Assembly: GCA_902800625.1 (NCBI GenBank)
Contig: CADCFG010000010.1
Coordinates: 1-64,000 of the forward strand
Length of the DNA stretch: 64,000 nucleotides
Reading direction: 5' to 3'
Source: an uncultured Eubacteriales bacterium
GTDB lineage: Bacteria; Bacillota; Clostridia; Christensenellales; Aristaeellaceae
A program made the position numbers and the translations under genes. Shown here piece after piece: positions 12,768 to 30,943 of this stretch; the stretch's first letter is position 1, and each line of letters begins with the position of its first letter. The notes under the pieces were generated by a model. The model had not been told where the DNA came from and did not search any database. It worked only from the letters and a program-made list of their open reading frames with translations.

Positions 12768-13391
12768 TCAGAACGTCTTTTTGATCACCAGGTCGATTCG
12801 GTCGCCCTTGACGCCCACCACCACGTCGTCCGCGATCTTGGCCACAATGGACTTCTCCAGTTCGTCCAGGGCCTCATCCACGGAATCCACGGAATCATGG
12901 GCCTGGTTCAGATCGTTGCGGTAGGTCTGCAGCGTCCAGATGGTCATCATCTCACTGCTGGGCATCATCGTGCCAGGGGTATGGACGATGCCGTAGTCCA
13001 TCGTCTGCTGGCCATAGGCGTCCATGGTGTTGCCCATGCCGCGCAGCGCGCCGGAGATCACCTCTCCCAGCTTCGCCATGAAGCCCTTGGCGGCGGCATT
13101 CTTGCCGGTGCTGGAAACGGACAGCAGCTCCTGCTTTTTGCCCGCATTCATGTCCGCGGTGGCCTCAAAGTGGATCTCACAGGCCTTGCCTTCCGCCGTG
13201 AACCAAATCTGGCCGTAGAAGTCCTCCAGCGTGGTCTTGACCATGCCCAGCGTCTCCTCCACCAACAGGTCCAGGCGCAGCGTGTCCCGCTTGTCCAGCT
13301 TGGCCTGCCAGGCAAAGTTTTCCGTAGCGTAGCGCGCCGCAGCCATGCGCTCGGCGTCGCTGTTGACCATGAATTTATCCGAAACTATCAT
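12768..13391 (-). CDS. Divergent HATPase-like regulatory protein
   Basis: A 207-residue cytoplasmic protein not recognised with certainty. Residues 33-60 (KRDTLRLDLLVEETLGMV) resemble the N-box helix of anti-sigma-type HATPases, where a conserved Glu binds magnesium. The last 25 residues (DDVVVGVKGDRIDLVIKKTF) resemble the C-terminal strands of RsbW-like domains. Between them the ATP-lid glycine motifs are replaced by about 100 residues rich in Met, Ala and Gln (TGKNAAAKGFMAKLGEVISG and onward). GGAGGAC supports the start at MIVSDKF. It lies downstream of a genuine anti-sigma ATPase and STAS gene, with a gap of 279 bp, so a partner-switching role is inferred. ATP binding is doubtful. Confidence 0.5.
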   Translation of the reverse strand: MIVSDKFMVNSDAERMAAARYATENFAWQAKLDKRDTLRLDLLVEETLGMVKTTLEDFYGQIWFTAEGKACEIHFEATADMNAGKKQELLSVSSTGKNAAAKGFMAKLGEVISGALRGMGNTMDAYGQQTMDYGIVHTPGTMMPSSEMMTIWTLQTYRNDLNQAHDSVDSVDEALDELEKSIVAKIADDVVVGVKGDRIDLVIKKTF

Positions 13392-13670
13392 TGTTAAGTC
13401 CTCCAATATCTCGCTGTTCAGATGCGTGAATCCTCTCGCTGGAGATGGAGCGGTTCCCATTCAGCGACAGGACACAGAGAGGCCCGCCTGCCGTCTGCAC
13501 CGAACGAGTAAAAATGCGCATAATGATGCCAGTCGCATCGCTGTGCGATGTAACAGCCAGCGCTCTTTCGTCCATAGCAAAGGCTGGCAACTGCATTGCG
13601 ACGGCCTGCGTCGGCGCGGGCGTTGTCATTCTTCTTCTATCGGATGCTGATCAACAGGCGCTGGTTTTGC

Positions 13671-13967
13671 TTATTCGATGTTCAGGATATCAGCGAAACC
13701 GGTGACGTCGAACACTTCGTTGACAATTTCGTTCACATGGGTTACCTTCATGCCGCCCCGATTGGCCATGATCTTGTGAGCGCTCAGCAGCACGCGCAGG
13801 CCTGCGGAAGAGATGTAGTCCAGCTTGGAGAAGTCCATCGTCAGCTCGGCGACTCCCTCCAGGCTGTTCTTGATCTCGTTCTCCAGCTCCGGCGCGGTAG
13901 TAGTGTCCAGGCGGCCCTCCAGGGCGATATTCAACGCGTTGCCGTTCAGATTCTTGGTGATCTTCAT
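13671..13967 (-). CDS. STAS-domain anti-sigma factor antagonist
   Basis: A 98-residue single-domain protein of the SpoIIAA/RsbV type. The pattern LNIALEGRLDTTTAPELENEI, then LTMDFSKLDYISSAGLRVLL and later VFDVTGF, is the complete STAS fold. Ser54 aligns with the serine phosphorylated by the partner kinase in SpoIIAA and RsbV. Unphosphorylated, such proteins bind the anti-sigma kinase and release its target. It lies 17 bp after the ATPase gene, so the pair is one translational unit. No sigma factor gene is adjacent, so the final target is unknown and need not be a sigma factor. A SpoIIE-type phosphatase at 52977-55148 could reverse the phosphorylation. Confidence 0.9.
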   Translation of the reverse strand: MKITKNLNGNALNIALEGRLDTTTAPELENEIKNSLEGVAELTMDFSKLDYISSAGLRVLLSAHKIMANRGGMKVTHVNEIVNEVFDVTGFADILNIE

Positions 13968-13984
13968 GTTCGTTTCCTCCTAAA

Positions 13985-14392
13985 TCAGATGTGTTTGTAT
14001 ATGGTCAGAACGTTCCTGCCGTCCTCATACCGATACGTCATGTTGTCCATGGTCTTCTTGACCAGGAATATGCCCAGGCCTCCGATCTCGCGTTCCTCGG
14101 CGGAGAGCGTCACGTCCGGATCGACTTTTTTCAGCGGGTCGAAGGGCATGCCGTTGTCCACGAAGGTGATGCTCGCCATGCGATCGGACGGGTCAAAGTC
14201 AAAGCGCACCGTCACTTCGCCGGTTTCGTCGCCATAGGCGTAGTGGGCAATGTTGGCGAACAGCTCGTCGATGGCCACGTCGATCTGCATCTGGGGTCGC
14301 ATGGCACAATCCAGCGCCTCCAGCTGCGCGTCGATGAATTCCGTCACCTTCGGGATGCTGTCGACAATCGCCTGTACGGTCAATTCAGTCAT
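13985..14392 (-). CDS. Anti-sigma-type serine kinase/HATPase (RsbW/SpoIIAB-like)
   Basis: A 135-residue single HATPase domain. The N-box IDVAIDELFANIAHYAY gives Glu43 and Asn47, the G1 box is FVDNGMPFDP (Asp79, Gly81) and the G2 box is GGLGIFLVKKTMD (104-116). All ATP-binding elements are intact. Proteins of this type phosphorylate a STAS antagonist on serine and sequester a sigma factor or other partner. The STAS partner gene follows directly. The gene is third in an operon that starts at a PreA-like gene and an exported HAD protein. That setting is unusual for a partner switch and gives no clear hint of the output. Confidence 0.9.
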   Translation of the reverse strand: MTELTVQAIVDSIPKVTEFIDAQLEALDCAMRPQMQIDVAIDELFANIAHYAYGDETGEVTVRFDFDPSDRMASITFVDNGMPFDPLKKVDPDVTLSAEEREIGGLGIFLVKKTMDNMTYRYEDGRNVLTIYKHI

Positions 14393-14404
14393 AGCGCCGC
14401 CTCC

Positions 14405-15820
14405 TTATTCAGCGGTGGTCTCCTCCACGGGCACGCGGTCCTCCGCCAAGTCCTCCAGCCAGTGGAACTCGCCGGTCTTGACCACTTCTTCGCCGTAGAT
14501 GGTCTTCCAGTCGTTGGCCATTGAGATCACGTTGTAGCCGCTGCCTTCCCACTTCTCGCGAAGCTCGGCCGCCTTTTCGGCGTTGCCGTAGTCGCGCACC
14601 TCGTCGTCCGCGATCAGCATGAAGGCCGCACTCTTGTAGACGTTGTTGTTGATGGTGTAGTTGTGCATGCTCACATCGCCGCCGGAATTGCCGAAGGACA
14701 GCACCGGCTGGCGGCCGATCTCCTGGGCGATCTGCAGCACTTTGTTGGTCTTCAGGTTCTTGATGAGCAGGTGATCCGTGCGGACGATGTCGTCGTTCAC
14801 GTTGAACACATAGTCCAGGCCATCCGCATCGCCCTGGTTCGTAGCCTCCAGCTGCACGTCCATGCCGATGATGTTCTCATAGGGAATCTCCACCATGCCC
14901 TCGATGAACACGCGGCAGATGAAGCGGTCGCTGCCGGAGCAGACAAAGCACTTGAAGCCGTAGTCCTGCAGGTACTCGATGACCTCCACCATGGGCAGGT
15001 AGAAGGAATCAGCATAGGTCATGCCCTCGAAGCCGTCCACCTCGCGCACCAACTCGCGGGTGACGAAGTCGGAGAACTCGCCCAGTGTCATGCCCGCATA
15101 GGCGCGGGCCGCGTGGGTGGCGTGCAGCATGTCCATGTGGTCCGGGAAGGACTTGTCCAGCGCATGGTCACGAAGCATGCGGCCGAACTCCAGCATCTCG
15201 GCATCCGGCTGATAGCTCTCGTCCGTCAGGATGCGGCGGGCAAGCAGGTAGTACTCCAGATAGGTGGGGTACAGCTCGCCCATCAGCGTGCCATCCATGT
15301 CGAACACAGCGATGCGGTCCATCTCCGGGATGAAGTTGGGCGACTCATCGTCGGTCACGTCCTCCACGTAGTCGATCAGCGTGTTCAGCGCCGGGGCGTC
15401 CTCGTTCCAGAACTCGAAGGCGTCCTCGTACTCGACGTCCTCTTCGTCCAGGGCCTCGATCTCCTCGGCTTCAACATCTTCGTTGTCGATCTCCGGCTCA
15501 GCGGGATCGTTTTCCATCAGGTCGTCCGAGGCGGTATTGCCGTCAGTGGTCTCCTCCACCTCAGCCCCTTCCTCAGCCGCAGGCTCCACTGCCACAGGCT
15601 CCTCAGCCACGGGCTCCTCAGCGGCGGGTTCTTCCACAGCGGTTTCCTCCGCAGCGGTTTCCTCCGCAGCGGTTTCCTCCGCAGCGGTTTCCTCCGCCAC
15701 AGTCTCCTCAACCGCCGGCTCTGTCGCGGTTTCCTCCGCAATGGCAAAGCCCGTCAGCATCGACAACGCCAACACCAGGGCAACCAGCAGGGATGCCAGG
15801 GAAATCCTGTTCTTTTTCAT
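14405..15820 (-). CDS. Exported HAD-superfamily phosphatase with acidic repeat linker
   Basis: A 471-residue protein. Residues 1-28 are a Sec signal peptide ending GFAIAEE. Residues about 30-130 are a low-complexity Glu/Ala/Pro/Val region made of EETAA-type repeats, probably an extended linker through the wall. From about 168 on lies a HAD phosphatase domain with the nucleophile motif VFDMDGTL, a Ser in CFVCSGS (motif II), and FGNSGGDVSM (motif IV). This matches phosphoserine-phosphatase-like secreted acid phosphatases. The substrate is unknown; phosphate release outside the cell is the natural inference. It follows the PreA-like gene by 30 bp and precedes the anti-sigma ATPase by 12 bp, so it is translated from the same transcript. 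Confidence 0.82.
   Translation of the reverse strand: MKKNRISLASLLVALVLALSMLTGFAIAEETATEPAVEETVAEETAAEETAAEETAAEETAVEEPAAEEPVAEEPVAVEPAAEEGAEVEETTDGNTASDDLMENDPAEPEIDNEDVEAEEIEALDEEDVEYEDAFEFWNEDAPALNTLIDYVEDVTDDESPNFIPEMDRIAVFDMDGTLMGELYPTYLEYYLLARRILTDESYQPDAEMLEFGRMLRDHALDKSFPDHMDMLHATHAARAYAGMTLGEFSDFVTRELVREVDGFEGMTYADSFYLPMVEVIEYLQDYGFKCFVCSGSDRFICRVFIEGMVEIPYENIIGMDVQLEATNQGDADGLDYVFNVNDDIVRTDHLLIKNLKTNKVLQIAQEIGRQPVLSFGNSGGDVSMHNYTINNNVYKSAAFMLIADDEVRDYGNAEKAAELREKWEGSGYNVISMANDWKTIYGEEVVKTGEFHWLEDLAEDRVPVEETTAE
15638..15697 (-). repeat. Tandem 15-bp repeat, four copies, in the HAD gene
   Basis: The 15-base unit AGCGGTTTCCTCCGC is repeated four times without change. It encodes the five-residue repeat of Ala, Glu, Glu, Thr and Ala in the acidic linker. 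Identical copies suggest recent slipped-strand expansion and probable length variation between strains. Confidence 0.9.
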
Positions 15821-17530: not shown

Positions 17531-18679
17531 TCAGCCCACGTTCTCGTCGTTGCCCATGGTCAGGGTGTGATCCCGCAGGTTTTCCCAAGCCAGCCGGTTC
17601 AGCGGGTCATACATCACCTCATCCATGGTCTCGGCCGCGCCGGCGTCCTCGAACACGGCCCGGTTGGCTTCGTAGTCCTCCAGGCAGTCGTCCAGCAGCG
17701 AGCGCACGGCGTTGAAGCCCTCCAGCGCGCGCGCCTGGGTGTCCGCGTCCAGAGACTCGAAGGCCGCGAAAATGTTTTCATGCAGGTTCACCATCTCCGG
17801 GTCCCACAGGCCGTGATCCATGGCGAAGGCGCATATGTTGGCGGCCGCCTGGGCGGTCTTCAGGGACGCGCCTGCCGTACCTGCCTCCAGATTCGCCAGC
17901 GTGCCGAAGTAGTCCTGCGCCAATTCATCGACAGACGGCGCCTCCAGCGCGCCCGCTTCCACGACATCCGACACCACTGAATCGCTGTTCACCGGGAAGG
18001 TGAAATAGGTGTCCGGGAAGGGCTCGTCCGCCAGGGTGAAGTGCCACCACTCCTCCGCCAGGGGCTTGAAGCCGTGGGCAAGCATGGCCTCGCGCAGGAT
18101 CATGCGGTTGGCGTACTGCTCCTCGGTGATGCCGGTATAGTCCGGATGGGACAGCTCGCCGAAGTAGTCGAAGGTGCCGCCCATGTCCACTTCCTTCTCG
18201 GTGGTCATGTCAAACAGCGTCAGGTCCACGGTGCTGCCCCGGCTGTGCCCGGAGTGTTCGGCGATGTAGCCCTGGGGAAACAGCACGTCCTTGTCCAGCT
18301 CCGGATAGAAGTATTCCTTCATGCGCACGTCGTCCATGTCCAGCGCCCAGTTCATGAAGTCCGTCACCGCCATCTGGGGGCGGTAGGCGTCGTAGATCTT
18401 CAGCCGGTAGCCCTGGCTGACCACGTCGTCGCTCACTTCGCGCAGCGCCTGGGCAGCCTCCTTCGTCAGGAAGGCCAGCGGCTCTTCGTAGCCGTCGATG
18501 CGGTCGCCCACGAAGTTGTAGGTGGAATAGTAGCGGATCTCCAGGATCGCATCCGGCACGGCCTCGCTCAGAAGCACGAAATCCGAAGCGTCGCTTGAGA
18601 GAGTCACGTCCTCAGCCAGCGCGGCAAAGCCGCCCAGCAGCGCCAGGCACAGCGTCAGCACCAGTATGCGTTTCATCAT
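17531..18679 (-). CDS. Secreted VanX-type D,D-dipeptidase with C-terminal helical extension
   Basis: A 382-residue protein. Residues 1-23 form a signal peptide ending AALAED. Residues 30-230 are a VanX-family zinc dipeptidase: SGHSRGSTVDLTL gives His145 and Asp152, EEWWHF gives Glu210 and His213, and Arg100 lies in DAYRP. The remaining 150 residues (233-382) are predicted helical, acidic and without recognised motif. The catalytic core closely resembles the cytoplasmic paralogue at 9295-9948, sharing EIRYYSTYNF and DAYRP blocks. An exported VanX would release D-Ala from wall dipeptides outside the cell. AAGGAGGAG supports the start at MMKRI. It lies 35 bp after the M4 peptidase gene. Confidence 0.85.
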   Translation of the reverse strand: MMKRILVLTLCLALLGGFAALAEDVTLSSDASDFVLLSEAVPDAILEIRYYSTYNFVGDRIDGYEEPLAFLTKEAAQALREVSDDVVSQGYRLKIYDAYRPQMAVTDFMNWALDMDDVRMKEYFYPELDKDVLFPQGYIAEHSGHSRGSTVDLTLFDMTTEKEVDMGGTFDYFGELSHPDYTGITEEQYANRMILREAMLAHGFKPLAEEWWHFTLADEPFPDTYFTFPVNSDSVVSDVVEAGALEAPSVDELAQDYFGTLANLEAGTAGASLKTAQAAANICAFAMDHGLWDPEMVNLHENIFAAFESLDADTQARALEGFNAVRSLLDDCLEDYEANRAVFEDAGAAETMDEVMYDPLNRLAWENLRDHTLTMGNDENVG

Positions 18680-18714
18680 GTTGATCTCCTCCTTAATCGC
18701 GTTGCTCAATTGGT

Positions 18715-21282
18715 TTATGCCGCGTCGGCGGGGTGTTCGTCCATTTCCTCCGTGATCATGTCGGTCTCCCCTGACACTTCATCCTCCGCAGGGGTTTCCT
18801 TGGGCCGGGACAGCCGCGGCTGGGGAATCTCCTCCTCTTCCACGTCCCCGCTGAACATATCCGAGATCACCGGCCGGATGTCCGCCAGCCCCGCAGTGGG
18901 CAGCTCGTTGACCGCGCCTCCCTTGATCTGGTACAGGAAGAGGCGCAGGATATTCTCCAGGCTGTAATCGTTGCCGATCTCATCGATCACCTGATTGATA
19001 TAGGCCTCCGTCTCCGGGCTGATCTCGACTTCGCCGTCCTCCGTGTCGCCCTCGACCTCCAGCTGTTCAGGCATCGCGCCGATGTCGAACCAGGTGCCGG
19101 CAATGCAGGCGAGCACGTGAGCGTCGTCCAGGTCGTCGGTCTTCATGTTGTAGACGCCGTGGAACAGCACCGGCACCGCATGGCCCGGGACGCACACCAT
19201 GCGCATGGTGCGCCCGTCCTGGCCTGCGTTGGTGCTGGCGAAGTAAAACGCGCCCTTAAGGTGCCCTATGAGCCACTCCAGGAGCTCCACATCTATGTTC
19301 GCAAGGCTGTCCGTCTCCTCGTCCGGGCTGCCGAACAGCAGGCCTGCGAGCGCGCCGAACAGGCCGCCCTCTCCGCTTTCGGAGTCGTCCAGCTTATTTT
19401 GCAGGAAGGGAGGGAGCACGCTGTAGTCGCCGGACAGCACCTGGAAGAATATGTCGCTCACCGTTCCGACCAGCTTGTTCACGTCCACGCTGAACACATA
19501 GAGGATCCACTGTTCGTCGTCGAAGATTTCGTTCTCCGGCAGCGTGAGGGTCAACAGCGCCCGGTCGTCATCGAACACCTCCGGCATCTGGTCCACGCCC
19601 AGGCGGGTGGCGTCCAGCGCCCGGCGCAGCTCAACATCGTACTTATCAAGCCCCGAGGCCCGCAGCGCCCAGGGCAGCAGCTCGGCCAGCTGGGGATAGT
19701 CCGTGCCCGGCACCATGGCGCAGTCCACGGTGAACCAGAAGCTGCGGCCCTCCTCAAGGGTCATGCCGCCCTTTTCATACAGCCGCCAGGCCAGATAGTT
19801 CAGAAGCGATGAATTGCTGTGCACGCCGCCCTGGTCGTTCAACACGGTGGGCGTTCGCACGCCGGGCACATAATACACGTCCCAGGTGAACTCCGGCTGC
19901 TGGAACTCGTGGGGATCGCTCATGCTGCGAACCTGCGTCGTGCTCTTATCCCCCAGCGTCCAGGTGGCGTCCGGCTCCATCATCATTTGGCAGGTCTTGC
20001 CCTGGATGTCGCTGATGGCCTCGTTGATGGCGCCGTAGTCGTTCATGTAGGCGGTGTAGGTCATCACAGAATCGGTTACGCAGTGGGTGTACTCATGGGC
20101 CAGCACGTCCAGGCACTGGGAATAGTCGTTGCCATAGCTGGCCAGGAAGACCTGCCAGCCCAGGTAGCCGCCCACATAAGCCGCGTTGTCCACGGGCTTG
20201 TGGTCGATGTCGCAGTAGTTGTTCAGGATCAGGATCGGCGTGTCCAGGCCGTCCCCGCCCGACCAGCCGATGGCCTTGTAGTAGTCATAGGCCTTGCAGT
20301 AGTTGTACAGGCTCAGCAGGCCCACCTGGTCCCACTGGCGGTTGTCCGGGCTGTAGGCCAGCGTGACCCGGCCGCCGCCGTAGAGGAAATCCCAGCAGTC
20401 GGCCACGACAATCCTGCGCTCGATGTTGCCCAGGTAGTACATGCCGGTGCGCTTGTCGCGCATCACGGTGACGGTCAGCTCCTTCTCGCCGCCGGTGGAC
20501 AGGTCCACATAGCCGGTGTAGTCAACCGGCTCCATGAACTCGAACACATAGCTGGCGTCAAAGCCGCTGACGCCGGCCTCGTCGCCGGGCATGATGGTGG
20601 GCAGGCTGTACAGGTATTCGCCGGAAAGCGTCACGTAGTGGGCCAGGTACGGCAGGTTGGAGGACTTAGGCTGATTGTTTTCCGGATTGTCGGTGTAAAC
20701 GACCCAGACCCAGCGGCTGCCCCCGTCGTCCTCGGCCTCCACGTCGATCTCCAGCGCCATGGGCAGGATCATCCGGTCGGTAAAGCCCTCAATCACGGCC
20801 GGCGTCTGCTGCCGCGTCCGGTTGGCATGATCCAGCACCAGTGCTTCCGCCTCTTCGGCGGAAATGCCCTCGCCCTGCTCCGCCTCGGGCAGGTCGGACA
20901 CGATGCTGCTGGTGAGGCCCAGCATTCGGCCGTCCCCATCGGCGATGACCTTCACGGCCCCGCCCAGCACGGTGGCGTTGTCATACATCTGTTGGAACAC
21001 GTAATAGCGGTTGCCGCAGGCGTCCGTCAGCGTGCGCCAGGGTTCCAGTTTAGTGCGCCCGTCGCCGCCCAGCTGGTCCATCGCGCCATCCACCACGCGG
21101 CCGGCGGCGTCCATGTCGGCCACGGGGGTGTCCACAGTCGCGCCATCGATCAGCGTCACACGACCGTCATGTTCATAGACAATGGGGCTTGCAGCTTCCT
21201 CTGCCGACACGGTCAGCGGCATCGCGCTGATCAACAGGCACAGCACAAGAGCAGCCGACAGTAATCTCTTGATTTTGCACAT
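18715..21282 (-). CDS. Secreted M4-family (thermolysin-like) metallopeptidase
   Basis: An 855-residue exported zinc endopeptidase. A signal peptide (1-27, ending TVSAEE) precedes an FTP/PepSY-like propeptide (about 30-200). The catalytic domain has the zinc motif HEYTH at 396-400 and the third ligand Glu421 in GAINEAISD. The later block GGVHSNSSLLNYLAWRLYE supplies the catalytic His region. The C-terminal 250 residues are acidic and unlike classical thermolysin, and the protein ends with a Glu-rich stretch. It would degrade extracellular protein for peptide uptake. Gene order with the VanX-like and C11 peptidases and an amino-acid ABC importer supports that role. Confidence 0.9.
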   Translation of the reverse strand: MCKIKRLLSAALVLCLLISAMPLTVSAEEAASPIVYEHDGRVTLIDGATVDTPVADMDAAGRVVDGAMDQLGGDGRTKLEPWRTLTDACGNRYYVFQQMYDNATVLGGAVKVIADGDGRMLGLTSSIVSDLPEAEQGEGISAEEAEALVLDHANRTRQQTPAVIEGFTDRMILPMALEIDVEAEDDGGSRWVWVVYTDNPENNQPKSSNLPYLAHYVTLSGEYLYSLPTIMPGDEAGVSGFDASYVFEFMEPVDYTGYVDLSTGGEKELTVTVMRDKRTGMYYLGNIERRIVVADCWDFLYGGGRVTLAYSPDNRQWDQVGLLSLYNYCKAYDYYKAIGWSGGDGLDTPILILNNYCDIDHKPVDNAAYVGGYLGWQVFLASYGNDYSQCLDVLAHEYTHCVTDSVMTYTAYMNDYGAINEAISDIQGKTCQMMMEPDATWTLGDKSTTQVRSMSDPHEFQQPEFTWDVYYVPGVRTPTVLNDQGGVHSNSSLLNYLAWRLYEKGGMTLEEGRSFWFTVDCAMVPGTDYPQLAELLPWALRASGLDKYDVELRRALDATRLGVDQMPEVFDDDRALLTLTLPENEIFDDEQWILYVFSVDVNKLVGTVSDIFFQVLSGDYSVLPPFLQNKLDDSESGEGGLFGALAGLLFGSPDEETDSLANIDVELLEWLIGHLKGAFYFASTNAGQDGRTMRMVCVPGHAVPVLFHGVYNMKTDDLDDAHVLACIAGTWFDIGAMPEQLEVEGDTEDGEVEISPETEAYINQVIDEIGNDYSLENILRLFLYQIKGGAVNELPTAGLADIRPVISDMFSGDVEEEEIPQPRLSRPKETPAEDEVSGETDMITEEMDEHPADAA

Positions 21283-21418: not shown

Positions 21419-22294
21419 TCAGTGCTTCTCAACCGGGTTGAAGCACCCGGCCAGCCGCACGCCCTCCATGGCGCGGCCTGCGTCCAGCTGTTCCCTCGTG
21501 ACGCCGCCTTTATTCTCAACCTCTATCACATAGTGATAGCTGCCCAGCGCGCTGCCCTCGGGCCGATCGTGGAGGGCCACCAGTTCCAGCCCGGCTTTGT
21601 GAAGCTCGACGATGATGTCGTCGATGCGACTGGCTTCGCAGGTGGCCACGAGCACCGCCCGGGTCAAACCCTCCCCTTCGCCCATCTGGCGGGAGAGCAC
21701 ATAGAAGCGGGTCTTGTTGGCATCGGTGATCTGCACGTTTTCCGCCAGCACCTGAAGGCCGTACAGCGCAGCGGCTCCCGGCGCGGCGACGGCGGCGATG
21801 GTCCCATCCCCCGTCTCGGCCACGTAGCTGGCCGCGGCGGCGGTGCTGGCCATCTCCAGGGTGTCGGCGTCGGGCAGGTGCTCCGAGCGCCATTTCTCGC
21901 TTTGGGTCAGGCCCTGGGCGTGGGAACAGACGGTTTTGATGCTCTCGAGCGACGCTCCGGGTACGCCCATGAGCGTCTGGCTGATGGGCAGGATCACCTC
22001 GCCCACCACGAAGGCGTCTTCCGCAGCGATCAGCGCATCCACGTAGTTCACCACCGCGCCGCCCACGGTGTTCTCCTGGGGAATCACGGCGAAATCCGCC
22101 GCGCCGGTGAGCAGGTCGTCGATGGCGTCGTTCACCGTCTCCCGGGGATTCAGCGCCTCGCCGCCGGTGAAATAGAATTGCGCGGCTTCTTCGGTGTAGG
22201 TGCCCGCCGGGCCCAGGTAGCTGACGGTCTGGGCGAGACCCCCCGTGCCCAACAGCGCCAGGCACAGGGCCAACGCCACGATCCTTGTGCGCAT
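21419..22294 (-). CDS. Exported prephenate-dehydratase-like protein with ACT domain
   Basis: A 291-residue protein. The body matches prephenate dehydratase: VSYLGPAGTYTEEAA, ADFAVIPQENTVGGAV, CSHAQGLTQSEKW and the Thr-Arg-Phe block NKTRFYVL. A C-terminal ACT domain contains HDRPEGSALGSYHYVIEVE, equivalent to the ESRP phenylalanine-binding region. The enzyme normally makes phenylpyruvate in the cytoplasm. Here residues 1-22 form a signal peptide (RTR, hydrophobic core, GLAQT), so it should be extracytoplasmic. The fold is also that of periplasmic binding proteins, so it might bind an aromatic compound instead. It follows the amino-acid ABC ATPase gene by 31 bp. A GTG two codons upstream is an alternative start. 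Confidence 0.8.
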   Translation of the reverse strand: MRTRIVALALCLALLGTGGLAQTVSYLGPAGTYTEEAAQFYFTGGEALNPRETVNDAIDDLLTGAADFAVIPQENTVGGAVVNYVDALIAAEDAFVVGEVILPISQTLMGVPGASLESIKTVCSHAQGLTQSEKWRSEHLPDADTLEMASTAAAASYVAETGDGTIAAVAAPGAAALYGLQVLAENVQITDANKTRFYVLSRQMGEGEGLTRAVLVATCEASRIDDIIVELHKAGLELVALHDRPEGSALGSYHYVIEVENKGGVTREQLDAGRAMEGVRLAGCFNPVEKH

Positions 22295-22325
22295 AGTCAC
22301 ATCTTCCTTTCCTTTTTCAGAGGCT

Positions 22326-23417
22326 TTATGTGTGTCTGATGCGAAGCACGAGCCGGTTGGGCAGCTCCTCGCCCGCCTGCCAGGTATGCTCCATGCTCTC
22401 GGTCATGCCCTTCAGCACCGCCAGGGACAGGTCGCCGTCCGGCGCGGTCACGTCCATGCAGGGTCCGGCATAGCGTATCGTCCACTCCGCGCTCTCCGCG
22501 GCCTCGGAATACTCGCAGACGGCCTGGACGCGCGGGGTTTCCAGCGCGGGCACCAGCAGCTGCGTGGCCTCCTCGAACACCAGCTGCACGCGGCCGGCCA
22601 GCTTCGGCGCAATCTGGTTCCTGTTGCACCAGGCAACGATCTCCCCCGCCATGCCCAGGAAATCCCAGTCGCGGCTCTCGATGTTCAGCTCCAACACCTT
22701 GAGCCTTCGCACGAACCGCCGCGTTTTTTCCCGCAGGGGCTTGTCGAAGATCTGCTCCGGGCTGCCGTCCTCGTAGACGCCGCCCTCGTCCATGTAAAAC
22801 ACCCGGTTGGAGATCGCCCTGGCGAAGTTCATCTCGTGGGTGACGATCATCATGGTCTTGCCGGTCTGCGCCAAGCCCCTTATGACCGCCTGCACTTCCC
22901 CCACCATCGTGGGATCCAGCGCGCTGGTGGGCTCGTCCAGCAGGATCACGTCCGGATCCATGGCCAGCGTGCGCGCGATGGCGATGCGCTGCTTCTGCCC
23001 GCCGGACAGCTCGTCCGGGTAATTCAGCGCCTTTTCCGCCAGGCCCACCATGCGCAGCAACTGCATGCCGGTGTCGTAGGCTTCCTGCTTCGATACACCC
23101 AGCAGGTCCATGGGCGCCAGCATGATATTCTCGATCACCGTCTTGTGCCCGAACAGGTTGAAGGACTGGAACACCATGCCCATCTTCTGCCGAACTCTAT
23201 TCATGTCACACTTTGGATCCGTGATCTCCACGCCGTCCACCCAGATCTTCCCCGCCGTGGGCTTCTCCAGCTGGTTGATGCAGCGCAGCAGCGTGCTCTT
23301 GCCCGTGCCGGAGGGGCCGATGACGGAGATGACGTCGCCGTCGTGGATCTCGACGCTCACGTCCTTCAGCGGCGTGACGTTCGGATACTCTTTCTTCAGG
23401 TGCTCAATCCGGATCAT
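22326..23417 (-). CDS. Polar amino-acid ABC ATPase with extra C-terminal HATPase-like domain
   Basis: A 363-residue protein. Residues 1-240 are a GlnQ/HisP-type ATPase: Walker A GPSGTGKST (34-42), signature LSGGQKQR (137-144), Walker B VILLDEP (157-163) and switch His194. This would energise the fused receptor-permease encoded immediately upstream, with which the gene overlaps by 14 bases. Residues 241-363 are not part of a normal GlnQ. The block GRVQLVFEEATQLLVP (275-290) resembles the N-box helix of anti-sigma HATPases, and the last strands resemble their C-terminus (LPNRLVLRIRH). Glycine-rich ATP-lid motifs are missing, so it may be a binding or regulatory tail. Confidence 0.88.
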   Translation of the reverse strand: MIRIEHLKKEYPNVTPLKDVSVEIHDGDVISVIGPSGTGKSTLLRCINQLEKPTAGKIWVDGVEITDPKCDMNRVRQKMGMVFQSFNLFGHKTVIENIMLAPMDLLGVSKQEAYDTGMQLLRMVGLAEKALNYPDELSGGQKQRIAIARTLAMDPDVILLDEPTSALDPTMVGEVQAVIRGLAQTGKTMMIVTHEMNFARAISNRVFYMDEGGVYEDGSPEQIFDKPLREKTRRFVRRLKVLELNIESRDWDFLGMAGEIVAWCNRNQIAPKLAGRVQLVFEEATQLLVPALETPRVQAVCEYSEAAESAEWTIRYAGPCMDVTAPDGDLSLAVLKGMTESMEHTWQAGEELPNRLVLRIRHT

Positions 23418-26406
23418 CGGTCTTCACCCCCTTCAGGATGTCTGCGGGTTTGCGGCGCTTCGGATTGAAATCAATGGCGATGCGCCCGATCACAAAGCCG
23501 ATCAGCCCCTCCAACAGGAAGTAGATGATCGTCACCGCGATCAGCGGGAAGAAGGCTTCGTAGGTGCGGCTGCGCACGATGTCGCCCATCTTGGTCAGGT
23601 CCTGCACGGCAATGTAGCCCACGATGGCCGTGGCCTTGATGAGGCCCACGATCTCGCCCCTGTAGGCGGGCAGCACGTGGGGCAGGGCCTGGGGCAGCAC
23701 GATCTTGAAGAAGGTGCGCCGATCGGAATAGCCCAGGGCGCAGGCAGCCTCGTACTGGCCGTTGTCCACCGCGCCGACGCCCATCTTCAAAAGCCCGAAC
23801 ACCGCCGCGCCGAAGGTGAGCGTAAAGCCGATCACCGCCACGGCAATGCCGCTGATGGCCACCGAACCGAAGATGATGTAGTAGAGTATCATCAAAAGCA
23901 CAACCATGGGCATGCCCTGCACCAGCCACATGGAAAACCGTGTGACTGAGTTCGCCACGGGGTTGCCGCCCCTGCACAGCATGAATACGGCGAAGCCCAG
24001 GGCCGTGCCGAACAGGATGGAGAACAGCGTGATCAGCAGCGTGGTCAGAACGCCGTCCGCAAACAGCCTCCAGCGGTCCTCGCGGATGAAAGTCTTGTTG
24101 AAGCTCGATACGATGCCGTCCCGGGAGGAACCCTCCGCTGTCGCTTCTGAAGCCTCAGCCTTGGCTGTCCGCACGATGAGCACAAAGGCCGCCGGGCAGT
24201 ATTCCACGAAATCGACGGATTGCGCCCGTTCATCCGTGATGATGATGCTGCCCGCGCCGATGTCAGCCTTTCCCGATTGCACCGCGGCCAGTATGGCGGA
24301 GAACTCCATGCCGGTAAACTCCACCTTCACATCCAGCTCCCGAGCGATCATCAGGATGATCTCCAGATCAAAGCCCTTCAGCTCGCCGTCTGCCCCGACA
24401 TAGCTCATCGGCTCCAGCGTGTCGCAGACCGCTGCCCGAACCGTTCCGTTCGCACCGGCCCAGTCCTGTTCAGGCAGGACTTTGGCGCTGTCGTCCGCCC
24501 CGGTCCACTTCTCCCAGGCCTTCTGAATCTCGGATTTGGGAATGGCGTCATAGGTCGTCCGCCACTGGTCCCTGCGGATATCGTCCTTGGCAAACGCGAT
24601 GCCGAAGGCGCCGTCCCGGAGGCTCTGGGGGAACAGCGCGAGGTCCGGGTCTCGGTTGAGCGCCAGCTGTCCGACGGCGTTGTTCATCAGGAAGGCGTCC
24701 GTCTTTTGGGCCTTCAGCGCCTGGATCATATCCGGGGTGCTGTTGAAGAAGGTGAACTCGCCCACGTCCGGGGCCTTGCTCTTCACCAGCTCTTCAAAGG
24801 GCGCGCCGGTGAGCATGGAGACGGTCTTGCCGGAGAGATCGGAGAATTCGGTGTACTCCGGTCGAACGCCCGACGCGGCGGCGTCCCGGGTATTCTTCAG
24901 CACCACAGCCACCGTGCCGCCGGAAAAATTCGGTTCGGAAAACAGCACGCTCTCCGCGCGCTCCGGGGTGATGCTGATGCCGGCCGCCGCGAAATCGCAC
25001 TTGCCAGTCTGGACCGCGGGCAGGATGCCGTCGAAGTTCATGTCCACGATTTCCAGGCCATACCCGGCATATTCGCAGAACAGGGCGGCGAGCTCCATAT
25101 CATAGCCCACCACCTTGCCGTCGCGCACATATTCAAACGGCGCGTAGCCCGACTCCGTCGCCAGACGAAGCGTGCCGTTTTCAGCGCTCAGGGAAGCGAG
25201 GTCCGGCATGGTCTTCGCCGTCTCGTCCTCGCCGAACCACTTGGCTGAAAGCCGATCCAGTTCCCCCTCGGGAAGTTGATGAAGGAAGGCGTTGAACTGA
25301 TCCCTCAGGCTCTCCCCCGCCTCACTCTTGGGAAACACGAGCGCAAACTCATAGCTGTCCAGATACTCCGGCAGCCAGGTTACCCGGTCGCTCTCCCGCA
25401 TCAGGATCTGGGCCACCGGCTCGTCGACCACGAACGCATCGATCTTCTGTCCGGTGAGCGCCGCTACCAGGTCGGCCTTGCCGTTGTAGTACTCCACCTG
25501 GGCTTCCGGCAGCTTCTCCGTGACCATCGCATCGAAGCTGGCGCCGGTCTGCACGCCGATGCGCCTGCCGTTCAGCTGGGCCAGGGATGTGAAGGCGCCA
25601 TCCGCGCTTGCGGTGGCCTCCGCCTCGCCCCGCACCATCACGCCGATCTTCTCCTCGTACAGCAAATCGGAGAAGGGCAGCGCTTCGGCGCGCTCGGGCG
25701 TTATGTTCAGGTTCGCCATCACGCAGTCCACGTCGCCGGTCACCGCCGCGGAGGTGATGGCGCCGTAGTCATAGACCTTGAACTCCAGTTCAGCGCCGAG
25801 CCACGTGGCAAAGCGCCGCGCCAGCTCGATGTCGTAGCCCGACAGCCCCGTGCCGATATAGTAGCTGTAGGGCGGCACGATGCCGGAGGTGCCCACCGTC
25901 AGGTGAATGTCCGAGGTCTCGGGCACGGGAATGTCCGGCATGGTCTCCTCGCCCTGGATCACCCAGCGGGTGTACATGTCGTCCAGCGTTCCGTCTGTGC
26001 GGATTTCATCAATGAATTGGTTGAGTTTGCCCGTGAAATCCGGGATCTTCGTCACCGGCGAGATGCCCACGGCGATGCGCACCGGCTCGCCCAGGGTTTC
26101 GTCCAGCAATCGAACGCCCTGCAGGCCGCTCTCGATGGCGACGCGCATCTGGTTGTAATCGTAGATAAAGGCGTCGATCTTGCCCTGGGCGACGGCCTGA
26201 TAACCGGAGGGCTTGTCGGTGAAATATTCGATCCTGGCCCTGGGGAACTGCCCCCGGGCAATGCCCTCGGCGGCGCTGCCCTGGTCGACGCCGATCCTCA
26301 CGCCCGGGTCGTCCAGCCAGGAAAGCGTCCCGGCTTCGCCCTCCGCGCAAGCCGCAGCGCCCAACGCAAGCAGCATCGCAAGCAGGAGCGCAAATCTCTT
26401 CAGCAT
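23404..26406 (-). CDS. Fused amino-acid receptor-permease: two complete and two half SBP domains plus permease
   Basis: A 1000-residue ABC importer component. A signal segment (1-22) is followed by extracytoplasmic family 3 solute-binding modules. Residues 30-158 resemble only the second lobe of such a receptor. Residues 166-392 and 411-636 are complete receptors, each with the PERAE block (NITPERAEALPFS, SITPERAESVLFS). Residues 652-748 hold only a first lobe (ITDERAQSVDF). Residues 780-980 are the permease with about five membrane helices and the EAA loop YEAACALGYSDRRTFFKIVLPQALP that contacts the ATPase. Start 26406 is preferred (AAAAGG nine bases upstream); 26412 is possible. It would form a homodimer with the ATPase downstream, carrying several binding sites per pore. 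Confidence 0.88.
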   Translation of the reverse strand: MLKRFALLLAMLLALGAAACAEGEAGTLSWLDDPGVRIGVDQGSAAEGIARGQFPRARIEYFTDKPSGYQAVAQGKIDAFIYDYNQMRVAIESGLQGVRLLDETLGEPVRIAVGISPVTKIPDFTGKLNQFIDEIRTDGTLDDMYTRWVIQGEETMPDIPVPETSDIHLTVGTSGIVPPYSYYIGTGLSGYDIELARRFATWLGAELEFKVYDYGAITSAAVTGDVDCVMANLNITPERAEALPFSDLLYEEKIGVMVRGEAEATASADGAFTSLAQLNGRRIGVQTGASFDAMVTEKLPEAQVEYYNGKADLVAALTGQKIDAFVVDEPVAQILMRESDRVTWLPEYLDSYEFALVFPKSEAGESLRDQFNAFLHQLPEGELDRLSAKWFGEDETAKTMPDLASLSAENGTLRLATESGYAPFEYVRDGKVVGYDMELAALFCEYAGYGLEIVDMNFDGILPAVQTGKCDFAAAGISITPERAESVLFSEPNFSGGTVAVVLKNTRDAAASGVRPEYTEFSDLSGKTVSMLTGAPFEELVKSKAPDVGEFTFFNSTPDMIQALKAQKTDAFLMNNAVGQLALNRDPDLALFPQSLRDGAFGIAFAKDDIRRDQWRTTYDAIPKSEIQKAWEKWTGADDSAKVLPEQDWAGANGTVRAAVCDTLEPMSYVGADGELKGFDLEIILMIARELDVKVEFTGMEFSAILAAVQSGKADIGAGSIIITDERAQSVDFVEYCPAAFVLIVRTAKAEASEATAEGSSRDGIVSSFNKTFIREDRWRLFADGVLTTLLITLFSILFGTALGFAVFMLCRGGNPVANSVTRFSMWLVQGMPMVVLLMILYYIIFGSVAISGIAVAVIGFTLTFGAAVFGLLKMGVGAVDNGQYEAACALGYSDRRTFFKIVLPQALPHVLPAYRGEIVGLIKATAIVGYIAVQDLTKMGDIVRSRTYEAFFPLIAVTIIYFLLEGLIGFVIGRIAIDFNPKRRKPADILKGVKTDDPD

Positions 26407-26695: not shown

Positions 26696-28810
26696 TCAGG
26701 GTTCAAATGGCGAGCTCGCTTCCCGGAGACTGACCCAGTCGCCGTCCTCCCATTCCATATCCTCCCGGAAGGTCATCTTCTCGCCGTCCCAGTGGATTTC
26801 GATCATTTCGGCAAAGGTTTGGCGCAGGAACACGTCGTCGATCTCGTATTGCAGGTAGTAGGTGCCCGGGGGCAGCGGGATCTCCTGCACGTCCAGGCTG
26901 CGATACATCGACAGCGCCTTGCTGAATTGGTAGTCCGCGCTGCCGTAGATGGGATAGAGCAGCTGGTACTCCTGTCCGGTCAGCGCGGACAGCGGCCTCA
27001 CGCTGCGGTTCAGCAGCGCGCTGTTCTCCTCATAGCCTTCCCACATGCCATAGACCTCGTAGTCATTGATCCTCGACTCGCCCTGGTCAACAACATAATT
27101 CGTATGGCGTCCGCAGCGCAGCATACACACCTTGGAATCGATCATCACCGGAATGTTGTACAGCTTTTCGACGTAATTGGTCTGGACCAGATCCATGCAG
27201 ATCAGCTCGCCATCGATGGACGGCCAGTGCATGGGGTCTCCCGCGCGCCGGATCAGGCCGGTATTCTCGCTTGACTGTGTGGACTCGTAAATGCAGTCTG
27301 TGCGGCCCAGGTACATGAGCTCGCCCGTCTCCTCATTCAAGCGATACAGACTATAGAAGGCATTGTCCGTGTTCTCGTATGTATCAAAGTCGATCTCCAT
27401 TGCCGGCATGCCGTCCGCACACAGGATTCTGCGCACCCTTACGTCAAAAGCATCCACGCTGTCGACATCCGGCAGGCGCTTCGCGGAATCATATACCCAG
27501 TCCGGGGCAGTCCAGTCTGAGATGCTGTCGATGAAGGCAAGGTAATGCGGCGCGGGGTAGTTCATGGCATAGATATCCAGCTGCTCCGCAGTAAATACGG
27601 CCGGATAGCAGAAGGTCAGTCCCATGGCTTCACTGCGCCCCGGACCGCGCACACAGTATTCCACCGCGTCCGTCAGCGCCTGAAGCATCCTGTTGCGCAG
27701 TCTGAACCGCGTGAAGATGGGCAGGTCCTCATTAAGAAGGAAGCTCCCCAGGTCCCGCATGTTGAACGGATCCTCTCCGTATTCCCTTGAGTGGAAAAGC
27801 GCCCTCACATAGACATTGGCAACGCTGGGATAGTTCAGTATCGCGTTGCCCACTTCGCTGAACAGCTCTTCAGTGGCATCCACCAGCGCGTCAATTTTGC
27901 TCAGATCGATCACCGACCACGTGAGGTTGGCCTTGTTCGCGGTCGAAGCATGGTTGGCGTACTTGACGGCAGTGGTGTCGCAGACCATTCGGCTCAGGAA
28001 TTCACCGTCGCACTCCGCGTAGGCAAGCAGCTGCTGCATCCAGTCCCCCACGGCAGTACCCTCTCCGGGCACGTTTTCCTCTGAGGCCACCATCCAATCG
28101 GCGTAATCCTTGAGATTCCACGCCGTCTCCAGGTTGGCCATCAGGCAGGCGTCGATGATAATGGTGTCGAAGTGCGCCCCGCCGTCCTCAAGCGCCTGCT
28201 TCAGTTCGTACAGGTACATGATGTCATTGTCGAACAGCTCGTCGATGAACAGGCCCGAGCGCGCCCCGTCGCCGTGATCCCACAGCACCAGTGCGTACTT
28301 TTTTGCGGGCCGTGTCTCGACGCCCCAGCGGATGAAGTCCGCCAGCGTTTCCGGGTCGGCCATGCTCGCCAGCGGCACGGTCTCAAGCAGGTTGTACCCA
28401 AAGGAGAAGCCGTCCTCGGTATACTTCTCGTCCGAAATGGTGTCATAACTCCAGCGCTGCAGAGCCTTCGGGTCGATGTCCAGACCAGCTTCTTCTCCAT
28501 GCCACTCCTTGCTGCCGCCGGTCTCGATGAGCACGTTGACCTTTCCCTTTTTCTCAAGCATGCCGCTGTCCACGCTGGCGCCATCTGAACGGACGTAATC
28601 CGCCATGAAGTTGGCCAGGTAGTATGTCTTGCCGATCTCCTCCAGGTTGGTGGAGGCATAGCTGTACTTGCTCTCGAGGTCTGAGCCGCAGAAGTAGAAC
28701 AGTACCGTCCACTCGTCCTCTTCCTCCGGAGCCGCTTCGGCGGTGGCCGCCGCGCCGCAGAGGATCAGCAGCAGCACCGCTGACAGGAGTATCAGAATCG
28801 TCTTTTTCAA
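26696..28810 (-). CDS. Secreted clostripain-family (C11) cysteine peptidase, copy A
   Basis: A 704-residue exported peptidase. The signal peptide (1-26) ends ATAEA. The caspase-like fold is shown by DEWTVLFYFCGSDLES (33-48), the catalytic His179 in LVLWDHGDGARSG and the catalytic Cys222 in IIIDACLMANLETAW. Clostripain-type enzymes cleave after Arg or Lys and often self-activate. The C-terminal 350 residues lack known motifs but are shared with copy B. The start codon is TTG, supported by GGAGGTG six bases upstream. It lies 30 bp after copy B, so the two are co-transcribed. Role: extracellular protein breakdown; maturation of secreted proteins is an alternative. Confidence 0.9.
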   Translation of the reverse strand: MKKTILILLSAVLLLILCGAAATAEAAPEEEDEWTVLFYFCGSDLESKYSYASTNLEEIGKTYYLANFMADYVRSDGASVDSGMLEKKGKVNVLIETGGSKEWHGEEAGLDIDPKALQRWSYDTISDEKYTEDGFSFGYNLLETVPLASMADPETLADFIRWGVETRPAKKYALVLWDHGDGARSGLFIDELFDNDIMYLYELKQALEDGGAHFDTIIIDACLMANLETAWNLKDYADWMVASEENVPGEGTAVGDWMQQLLAYAECDGEFLSRMVCDTTAVKYANHASTANKANLTWSVIDLSKIDALVDATEELFSEVGNAILNYPSVANVYVRALFHSREYGEDPFNMRDLGSFLLNEDLPIFTRFRLRNRMLQALTDAVEYCVRGPGRSEAMGLTFCYPAVFTAEQLDIYAMNYPAPHYLAFIDSISDWTAPDWVYDSAKRLPDVDSVDAFDVRVRRILCADGMPAMEIDFDTYENTDNAFYSLYRLNEETGELMYLGRTDCIYESTQSSENTGLIRRAGDPMHWPSIDGELICMDLVQTNYVEKLYNIPVMIDSKVCMLRCGRHTNYVVDQGESRINDYEVYGMWEGYEENSALLNRSVRPLSALTGQEYQLLYPIYGSADYQFSKALSMYRSLDVQEIPLPPGTYYLQYEIDDVFLRQTFAEMIEIHWDGEKMTFREDMEWEDGDWVSLREASSPFEP

Positions 28811-28840
28811 TCAAACACCTCCAGATTGTCTCGTGCCGGA

Positions 28841-30943
28841 TTACGGATTGCGCAGGTCCTTCAGATCCACCCAGTCCTCGTCGTCCCACTGCTCCGCACC
28901 AGGGAAGGTCATGTTCTGGCCGTCCCACTGGATTTCGATGCGGTCCAGCACGGTCCTGCGCATGAACAGATCGTCGACCTCGTATTCCAGATAGTAGGTG
29001 CCGGCAGGAACCGGGATCTCGTCAACGTCCAGCGCCCGATACATCGTCAGCGGTTCGCTGGCTTGATAATCGGTCTTGCCGCTCTTTTCCGTGCCGTCGA
29101 TGGGATACAGCAGCCGATACTCCCGCCCGGACAGCTTGGACAGCGGCTCCACGCTGCGGTTCAGCAGCGTGCTGTTCTCGTCGTAGCCCTCCCACAGTCC
29201 GTAAATCTCGTATTCCTGCTTCGCATTGCCTTCGTCGTCGTAATTGATGTCGCGGCCGCAGCGCAGCAGGCAGGTCTTTGAATCGAGCTGCACCGGCACG
29301 TTGTACAGTTTCTTCGTGAATACCTCTTTCAGGAAGTCCATGCAGATCAGCTGCCCGTCGATGGCCGGCCAGTGCATGGGATCGTTCGCCCGCCAGATCT
29401 GGCCCGTGAAGTCTTCCGTAGATTCAAAGCCGCAGTTTGTGCGGCCCAGCTTCAGCACCTCGCCCGTCTCTTCGTCCTTTTGGTAAAGCGTATAGTAGAC
29501 ATTGTCGAGGTTCGGCTCCGGGCTGTGGAACATGACGCCGGGCATGCCGGTCTCGCTTATCTTCCTTTTGATTTGGATCTTCAACTCCTCGATGTCGTCG
29601 ATCTCCGGCAGGCGCTCCACGCTGTCGTACACCCAGTCCGGCGCGGTCCAGGGCGATACGGCGTCAATATAGGCAAGGTACACGGGAATGGGAAAGTTCT
29701 TGGCGTAGACGTCCAGCTCTTCATCGTCAAACTCCATCGGATAGCAGAATGTCAGGCCCCGGGCCTCGGCGCGGCCCGCGCCGCGCACGCAGTAATCCAC
29801 GGCGTCGGAAAGGGCCTTCACCGCTGCGTTGCGCATGGCCAAATCCGTATAATACACCATGTTGCGGTTGTAGATCAGGCTGCCAAGGTCCCGCATGTTC
29901 TGCTGGCCGTCGCCGTACTCGTTGGCTTCGAAGATCATCCGCGTAAACAGGTTGGACGATTCAGAATTGTCCCTCAACGTGTCCCCCACCGTCTGGAAAA
30001 AGCTTTCAAAGGACTTGACCACCGCGTCCACCCTGGAAAGGTTCACCACCGACCAGGTGAGAACCGACCTGGCCTCCTCCGACTCCTCGTTGGCATACTT
30101 GATGCTGGTGGTGTCGCACACGCAGCGGCCCAGCCATTCCCCGTCGCACTCCGGATAGCAGATCAGCTCCTGCATCCATTCGCCGATGGCGGTGCCCTTG
30201 CCGGGCACGACCTCCTCTGAGGCCACCATCCAGTCGGCGGAGTCCTTCAGGTTCCAGGCCGTCTCGAGGTTGGCCATCAGGCAGGCGTCGATGATCACAG
30301 CGTCGAAATGGGTTCCGCCGTCCGCAAGCGCCTGTTTCAGCTCATAGAGGTACATGGTATCCTTGTCGAACAGCTCGTCGATAAAAAGGCCGCTGCGCGC
30401 GCCGTCGCCGTGGTCCCAAAGCACAAGCGCATACTTCTTTGCGGGATAGTTCTCCGCGGCCCAGCGGACATAATCTGAGAGCGTGCCGGAATCGGCCATG
30501 CTCGCCAGCGGCAGCGTTTCCTCCAGTTCAAAACCGTCGCCCTTGTCCCCACCCATGCCGCCGTAGGGATACATGGCATAGTGCCAGCGCTGCAGGGCAC
30601 CAGGGTCGATGTCCATGCGCAGATCATAGGTGTGCCACTGGCTGCAGCCCCCGGTCTGCAGGACGATGTTGACCTCGCCGAACCGGCCGTCGTTCTCCCC
30701 GGTCATGGGCTCAATGCCATTGTTCATCATATCGAAATAATTGATTGGAACGCCAACGCCTGCGAGCTCCTCCAGGTTGCCGGTGGCATAGGCATACTTG
30801 CTCTCCAGGTCGGAGCCGCAGACGTAGAGCATCACCGTCCACTCGTCCAGGTCGTCTTCGACGCCCTCCGCCATCGCCGACGCGCCGCAAAGGAGCGTCA
30901 GCAGGAGAACCCCCGCCGTCAGTGTCAAGGCAATATTTCTCAT
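28841..30943 (-). CDS. Secreted clostripain-family (C11) cysteine peptidase, copy B
   Basis: A 700-residue paralogue of copy A, similar over its full length. The signal peptide (1-26) ends AMAEG. The catalytic His178 is in LVLWDHGDGARSG and Cys221 in VIIDACLMANLETAW. The surrounding block of about 60 residues is almost identical to copy A, whereas the 70-140 region differs and contains GGMGGDKGDG. The start at 30943 is set by AAGGGGATTAAC; the reading frame is open far upstream, but that stretch is non-coding in character. The two copies probably differ in substrate preference. The gene is divergent from the peptide-export operon across a 394-bp gap. Confidence 0.9.
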   Translation of the reverse strand: MRNIALTLTAGVLLLTLLCGASAMAEGVEDDLDEWTVMLYVCGSDLESKYAYATGNLEELAGVGVPINYFDMMNNGIEPMTGENDGRFGEVNIVLQTGGCSQWHTYDLRMDIDPGALQRWHYAMYPYGGMGGDKGDGFELEETLPLASMADSGTLSDYVRWAAENYPAKKYALVLWDHGDGARSGLFIDELFDKDTMYLYELKQALADGGTHFDAVIIDACLMANLETAWNLKDSADWMVASEEVVPGKGTAIGEWMQELICYPECDGEWLGRCVCDTTSIKYANEESEEARSVLTWSVVNLSRVDAVVKSFESFFQTVGDTLRDNSESSNLFTRMIFEANEYGDGQQNMRDLGSLIYNRNMVYYTDLAMRNAAVKALSDAVDYCVRGAGRAEARGLTFCYPMEFDDEELDVYAKNFPIPVYLAYIDAVSPWTAPDWVYDSVERLPEIDDIEELKIQIKRKISETGMPGVMFHSPEPNLDNVYYTLYQKDEETGEVLKLGRTNCGFESTEDFTGQIWRANDPMHWPAIDGQLICMDFLKEVFTKKLYNVPVQLDSKTCLLRCGRDINYDDEGNAKQEYEIYGLWEGYDENSTLLNRSVEPLSKLSGREYRLLYPIDGTEKSGKTDYQASEPLTMYRALDVDEIPVPAGTYYLEYEVDDLFMRRTVLDRIEIQWDGQNMTFPGAEQWDDEDWVDLKDLRNP

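Follow-up and report, generated by a model that had tools for sequence, protein, structure and literature searches.

An apparently exported prephenate dehydratase family in bacteria of the ruminant gut

Background

Shikimate-pathway enzymes outside the cytoplasm are already known, namely the AroQ-gamma chorismate mutases, the periplasmic cyclohexadienyl dehydratase (CDT) PheC, and fusions of chorismate mutase (CM) with CDT (PMC10520331). These exported enzymes are a puzzle, since their substrates are thought to be intracellular. What appears to be new here is that the exported family belongs to PF00800, the prephenate dehydratase (PDT) family of PheA, in bacteria. In the literature that we searched, in which subscription journals are thinly covered, no report of PF00800 export in bacteria was found; with the same coverage, an exact-phrase search on exported bacterial PDT found no paper, and titles and abstracts on the rumen and PDT held nothing on export. 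The preliminary description of the locus had held that PheA-type enzymes are cytoplasmic. This is nearly true, the exception being EqPdt of the powdery mildew Erysiphe quercicola, which is unconventionally secreted (PMC11980547).

With the canonical PDT/PheA enzymes (PF00800; 3mwb, 6vh5, 2qmx, and Escherichia coli PheA), the exported proteins share the fold, the PDT-ACT domain order, and the catalytic residues. They differ in having a Sec or lipoprotein signal, in the replacement of the GALV and ESRP motifs, in the lack of a CM domain, in forming one clade outside the canonical enzymes compared, and in scoring below the cut-off of the NCBIfam equivalog. Like the exported CM-CDT fusions and PheC, they would be extracytoplasmic shikimate-pathway dehydratases that duplicate an intracellular enzyme, sometimes with transport genes nearby and without feedback inhibition, which was shown experimentally for the CM-CDT fusions (PMC10520331) and is deduced for the proteins studied here. 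However, PheC/CDT is a different family, and the CM-CDT fusions occur in Proteobacteria, whereas the exported PF00800 proteins occur in Bacillota and Chloroflexota, come without an exported chorismate mutase, and are far commoner (290 loci versus nine species).

EqPdt resembles the present proteins in acting outside its producer, in its altered ESRP motif, and in the absence of feedback inhibition (presumed in our case), but it is fungal, has no signal peptide, and acts in plant cells together with a chorismate mutase that is also secreted (PMC11980547). GqqA of Komagataeibacter europaeus (7alz/7am0) has the same PDT-ACT scaffold and was reported to act on extracellular-type signals; it differs in its reported additional acylase activity and its partly changed catalytic residues (PMC8192741), and it is not closer to the present proteins in sequence than other PDTs are.

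Methods

The window is the whole analysed stretch of 64,000 nucleotides from an uncultured Eubacteriales bacterium (contig CADCFG010000010.1). Close orthologues of its exported PDT were sought in 100 related genomes, and further relatives in GTDB contigs by a scan of one genome per species. The scan gave 290 relatives; the wider set comprises the best 80 of these 290 (60-92% identity), and the habitat figures cover these 80. Export was called by a fixed home-made rule, applied to the best 80 and to ten canonical controls. For the active site, the alignment of the exported proteins included E. coli PheA and ten canonical enzymes; E. coli E232 was outside the residue comparison, as there was no reliable alignment at that position.

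Results and discussion

The gene and its export signal

The features of the locus are listed in Table 1. As the preliminary description had stated, the 291-residue open reading frame combines a PF00800 match with a Sec signal. The signal peptide with its predicted cleavage point is MRTRIVALALCLALLGTGGLA/QTV; the n-region MRTR carries a charge of +2, the core is uncharged and hydrophobic (mean Kyte-Doolittle value of 3.18 over the best 10 residues), and the cleavage site is G-L-A/Q. The PDT domain starts 3 residues past this site, so that a complete PDT follows the signal directly.

Table 1. Features of the exported PDT locus in the window
Feature	Position	Strand	Basis or remark
Whole exported PDT gene, 291 aa	21419..22294	-	ATG at 22294; stop codon ends at 21419
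Putative ribosome-binding site, AAGGAAAGGAAG	22303..22314	-	purine-rich, 8 nt before the ATG; read from sequence
Sec-type signal peptide, residues 1-21, predicted cleavage GLA/QTV	22232..22294	-	type conserved in relatives
PDT (PBP-like) catalytic domain, residues 24-203	21686..22225	-	PF00800, 173.9 bits
ACT-like domain, effector motifs replaced	21428..21661	-	AF2 model alignment to 3mwb and motif comparison
ABC ATPase, polar amino-acid importer type, upstream of PDT (31-bp gap)	22326..23417	-	profile matches; also beside L054, L069, L084, L121, L088
Three SBP_bac_3 domains fused to importer permease (BPD_transp_1)	23404..26406	-	also L054, L069, L084, L088, L107, L121
Exported M4 (thermolysin-like) peptidase, downstream	18715..21282	-	also adjoins exported PDT in L054, L059
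Exported M15 D-Ala-D-Ala dipeptidase	17531..18709	-	78% identity over 244 aa to the L107 fusion
Exported HAD-type phosphatase	14405..15820	-	homologues fused N- or C-terminally to exported PDT elsewhere

The earlier claim of a clear Sec signal was borne out by comparison. All 22 proteins from the genus and family, that is, the window PDT and 21 orthologues, carry an export signal, and by our rule, which requires an n-, h-, and c-region or a lipobox, 75 of the best 80 wider relatives are positive, against none of the ten canonical controls. Among the 80, 41 signals were of the signal-peptidase-I type and 34 had a lipobox; in one protein, the hydrophobic segment had no clear site, and the other four (L072, L106, L112, and L122) failed the rule, although their N-termini are signal-like by eye. 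Four proteins assigned to signal peptidase I by the rule (L096, L105, L128, and L130) look lipoprotein-like by eye. Neither the window PDT nor its relatives thus fall among the cytoplasmic PheA proteins, which are without an export signal.

Translation from an internal start had been named as the observation that would overturn the description; the protein would then be an ordinary cytoplasmic PheA paralogue and its hydrophobic N-terminus an annotation artefact. In-frame GTG and TTG codons do lie within the hydrophobic core, and they are the only alternative starts short of Met109, which is the next in-frame ATG and lies deep within the PDT domain. A start that bypasses the hydrophobic segment would therefore have to be a TTG inside that segment, without a visible ribosome-binding site, whereas the upstream ATG has one. 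Moreover, the signals of the 22 close and 75 wider relatives are conserved by type and not by sequence, lipoboxes occur in relatives, and other relatives have different exported domains fused N-terminally. An internal start is hardly credible on this evidence, and we strongly infer from the sequences that the window PDT is exported by the Sec system and then cleaved by signal peptidase I.

Members, habitat, and spread of the family

The 21 further copies, 69-92% identical, come from 20 of the 100 related genomes searched and belong to the genus of the window genome and three sister genera; ordinary CM-PDTs in related genomes are 22-38% identical and clearly apart from them. By their record titles, the best 80 of the 290 relatives come from Clostridiales/Christensenellaceae, Lachnospiraceae, Erysipelotrichaceae (Solobacterium), Oscillospiraceae, and Chloroflexota/Anaerolineaceae. 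At least 56 of these 80 have ruminant-linked titles, with a RUG isolate name (presumably a rumen catalogue genome), a ruminant organ (goat, sheep, cattle, roe deer, or water deer), or 'Reindeer'; from the titles of the rest, no habitat is evident. When about 390 genomes of the class and about 400 of the phylum were sampled evenly, no member at E<1e-70 was found other than that of the window genome; thus, the family is rare outside its niche. Genome G004 has two exported copies, at L039:7222-9345 (+) and L043:8873-9778 (-), one of which is fused to a histidine phosphatase. The family apparently consists of undescribed surface or secreted versions of PF00800 in bacteria from the guts of cattle, sheep, goats, and deer.

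In the phylogenetic tree, the exported proteins grouped in one clade (SH-aLRT 100), which a long branch separates from the sampled canonical CM-PDTs. The Chloroflexota sequences grouped together (93) inside a Clostridia-dominated branch, and those of Lachnospirales and Erysipelotrichales were scattered (16 and 5 label changes); this nesting and scattering indicate gene transfer between families and between phyla, although the tree came from a rapid search, its outgroup branches are long, and its organisms are named from MAG titles, so that its finer placements are not trustworthy. Spread on known phage or plasmid records was considered and dropped: viral contigs contained no relatives of the exported PDT, and plasmid records gave matches below 60% identity, of which the ten listed were at 33-36%.

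The housekeeping enzyme is usually retained beside the exported one. The second PDT of the window genome is an ordinary CM-PDT fusion of 380 residues without a signal, whose gene overlaps the end of the chorismate synthase gene by a few bases and contains the only CM_2-type chorismate mutase domain found in the genome. Such a CM-PDT is kept in 18 of the 20 carriers checked; the exported copy stands alone in G001 (95% complete) and G018 (89% complete), where incomplete assemblies may account for the missing gene. Among 16 carriers (the window genome and 15 others), no exported chorismate mutase was found, and we rejected such an enzyme as the source of substrate: in the 15, the CM matches are the CM domain of the CM-PDT, except for a second CM in G036, which has no signal at its N-terminus. 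Taken as a full pathway, the extracytoplasmic phenylalanine route that was one of two possibilities put forward earlier lacks support, given this absence and the presence of the cytoplasmic CM-PDT.

The dehydratase domain

The PF00800 match scores 173.9 bits against a cut-off of 25.2 and covers profile positions 1-179 of 181; a search of the genome gave a PDT match at the same coordinates. The score for the NCBIfam prephenate dehydratase equivalog PRK11898, 185.3 bits, is below its cut-off of 219, and identity to solved full-length PDTs is about 23-31%. No SBP_bac_3 match was found in the PDT protein at E 0.001, which sets it apart from PheC/cyclohexadienyl dehydratase.

The claim that all dehydratase blocks are kept, including Thr-Arg-Phe, was confirmed: the motifs YLGPAGTYTE, IPQENT, SHAQGLTQ, STAAAA, and NKTRF are all present, and E74, N75, S124, Q131, T195, R196, and F197 (window numbering) are invariant in 84 of 84 exported proteins. 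In the alignment, the positions of E. coli PheA E159, N160, S208, Q215, and T278 (of TRF) are identical in all 84 exported and all 11 canonical proteins; we take N160, S208, Q215, and T278 to be catalytic or substrate positions of the E. coli P-protein. E159 of that protein is a substrate-binding position (PMC8192741). The exported genes are under purifying selection (dN/dS of 0.03-0.26 in 10 of 11 pairs, the outlier of 0.53 being a pair with almost no differences). As the active site is intact and selection is purifying, dehydratase activity has most likely been retained, and the exported PDT is likely to be catalytically competent. A distinction between prephenate and arogenate specificity by the alanine of the plant PAC domain was set aside, as even plants offer exceptions to this rule.

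The AF2 model of the window PDT has a mean pLDDT of 85, and its nearest folds are solved PDTs and GqqA (Z 17.1-22.8). A changed function on the PDT scaffold outside the cell, such as an AHL acylase or another signal-quenching hydrolase, was also weighed. GqqA, a PDT homologue reported to have both AHL acylase and PDT activity (PMC8192741), is among the fold matches with Z 21.7, a surface location would suit quorum quenching, and 57 positions conserved in the exported family are unlike the canonical consensus. Nevertheless, of four catalytic positions in E. coli, GqqA has kept just two (PMC8192741), whereas those compared are kept here, and the window PDT scores no closer to GqqA (63 bits) than to other PDTs (114 bits for 3mwb). 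We regard a change of function as quite improbable.

The ACT-like domain

The ACT domain reported in the preliminary description is kept as a fold but not in its effector motifs. Residues 22-289 of the model align with 3mwb (Z 22.8, VIA-align), while Pfam ACT was not detected in the window PDT, so that the domain was found by structure only. GALV is lost, and the ESRP position reads H242-D243-R244-P245-E246-G247. Throughout the exported family, GALV is replaced mostly by [NSD]-R-I-D and ESRP by an almost invariant H-D-R-P followed by E-G-S; C219 is likewise invariant. The protein thus has the ACT fold without the GALV and ESRP that mark Phe-regulated PheA-type enzymes. A PDT with an altered ESRP is desensitised to aromatic amino acids according to PMC11980547, which cites work on Buchnera and E. 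coli. With both motifs replaced, phenylalanine probably does not inhibit the exported enzymes, their feedback having been lost or retargeted; the residues conserved in their stead hint at another effector or at a structural role. The idea that C219, H242, D243, and H254 form a metal site in the ACT pocket was discarded, as H254 varies among the wider relatives.

Neighbouring genes and the binding-protein alternative

The preliminary description placed the gene in one transcript with an amino-acid importer. The common strand, the short gap to the ABC ATPase gene, and the lack of a terminator-like sequence in that gap are in keeping with this, but the importer neighbour is absent from most loci of the best 80 of 290. 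Importers of this type, 41-95% identical, lie within four genes of an exported PDT in L054 and L069 (Clostridia) and in L084, L088, L107, and L121 (Chloroflexota), and the order of importer and PDT differs among loci. Because the window ATPase has no second genome copy above 54% identity, adjacency in 6 of 80 loci exceeds chance expectation, although the comparison is informal and the loci are not all independent. A conserved importer operon was rejected as the key to function, since it is confined to the window, L033/L054, L069, and the Chloroflexota loci L084, L088, L107, and L121. Regulation of the PDT gene by RNA was likewise rejected, as no T-box or riboswitch was matched by Rfam in the window.

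The importer bears on the other possibility put forward earlier, a receptor for aromatic acids: the protein might bind or sense prephenate, phenylpyruvate, or another aromatic acid outside the cell for transport or signalling, and any catalysis would be a side effect or would have been lost. The PDT domain shares its fold with type II periplasmic binding proteins, and the second tier of fold matches (Z 8-9.7) consists mostly of binding proteins and ATP phosphoribosyltransferases, including the substrate-binding proteins ModA, PtxB, and BvgS VFT2 (Z 8-9). About 34 of 80 relatives are lipoprotein-like, many with linkers, which is the usual form of Gram-positive binding proteins, an amino-acid ABC importer adjoins the window PDT and that of six of the 80 other loci, and exported CM-CDT fusions have been proposed to act in signalling (PMC10520331). 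However, the 84 sequences show no variation in the catalytic Thr of TRF or in the other active-site residues, fusions to phosphatases and a peptidase are unusual for a binding protein, and the importer already has three SBP domains. We consider a binding or sensing protein unlikely. The two earlier possibilities thus fared differently, the extracytoplasmic dehydratase being better supported than the receptor by the invariance of all key residues.

Exported M4, M15, C11, and HAD enzymes accompany the exported PDT in some loci. The HAD phosphatase of the window, whose Pfam score is weak and just below the cut-off, forms a set with an anti-sigma/STAS-like trio at 12768-15820 (minus strand), and the same set (57-78% identity) adjoins exported PDT in L067 and L068. 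Two adjacent exported C11 (clostripain-family) peptidases are found at 26696-30976 (minus strand), and a second M15 D-Ala-D-Ala dipeptidase domain, with no obvious signal in the called frame, at 9295-9948 (minus strand).

Other parts of the window also contain genes of note. Two large AA_permease_2 fusions at 38034-45460 (minus strand), one with GGDEF, response regulator, and EAL domains and the other with a histidine kinase and response regulators, look like transporter-sensors. At 31323-37967 (plus strand), a gene for a small protein with 'LEELEEVTGGKK', resembling a double-glycine leader, lies upstream of one for an ABC protein whose N-terminus is C39-like and of further ABC and regulator genes; by eye, this is similar to a bacteriocin or RiPP export locus.

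Fusions

Some exported PDTs are fused to other exported enzymes and would thereby be held on the outer side of the membrane. A HAD phosphatase precedes the PDT in L042/L062, L066, and L081 and follows it in L050/L077, L084, L090, and L107, the last also with an M15 dipeptidase; a histidine phosphatase (His_Phos_2) is fused in L039/L078, a tyrosine-phosphatase family (Y_phosphatase3) in L106, and a GH3 hydrolase in L103. Extensions of L079, L112, and L125 had no Pfam match. The involvement of three phosphatase superfamilies, and of HAD in both orders, implies that fusion to exported proteins occurred repeatedly and independently. Recurrent N- or C-terminal fusion to five hydrolase families, with no fixed partner across gene neighbourhoods, might point to a mobile accessory module with a mainly structural or targeting part in secreted hydrolases. 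Yet at least 65 of the best 80 relatives are without a long extension, so that most stand alone, and the active site is invariant; such a module has little probability in our estimation. The diversity of partners (phosphatases, peptidase, and glycosidase) indicates no single pathway. With its lipoproteins, its fusions, and its intact catalytic residues, a whole exported family stands behind the initial proposal of an exported PheA-type dehydratase.

Conclusions

We consider it fairly probable, judging from sequence comparisons, that the window gene encodes an extracytoplasmic prephenate/arogenate dehydratase, a member of a horizontally spread, secreted or membrane-anchored PF00800 family of ruminant-gut bacteria. 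After Sec export, the protein would be cleaved by signal peptidase I, or lipidated in the lipoprotein branch. It would convert prephenate to phenylpyruvate, or arogenate to phenylalanine, by decarboxylation and dehydration, as its residues suggest, with phenylalanine feedback lost or retargeted through the exchange of GALV and ESRP for a different conserved set.

Substrate supply is the weak point of this reading, as prephenate is no obvious extracellular nutrient. With no exported chorismate mutase in the 16 carriers, prephenate or arogenate would have to come from lysed cells. More speculatively, the enzyme could scavenge these compounds from lysed microbes or plant cells, or serve in sensing, and the aromatic product might be taken up by general amino-acid or keto-acid uptake or, in certain genomes, through the amino-acid ABC importer encoded next to the gene. 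The companion peptidases, D-Ala-D-Ala dipeptidase, and phosphatases would plausibly suit a feeder on cell debris. We propose tentatively, as a possibility short of probable, that an active dehydratase on the surface of many unrelated ruminant-gut bacteria turns prephenate or plant arogenate set free in the gut into phenylpyruvate or phenylalanine; this would be a scavenging or signalling step that is shared by lateral transfer and has no described bacterial counterpart.

A dehydratase family different from those known to be exported thus appears to be exported in many species of one ecosystem and two phyla, as a secreted protein, a lipoprotein, and part of multi-enzyme fusions, and its active site is unaltered. 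Among the carriers, Oribacterium sp. C9 and Lachnospiraceae bacterium JC7 are possibly in culture, as their titles denote isolate genomes. Annotation and flux models that equate every PF00800 match with phenylalanine biosynthesis may mislead for carrier genomes. The exported PDTs offer a large natural data set for the role of free prephenate and arogenate outside cells.
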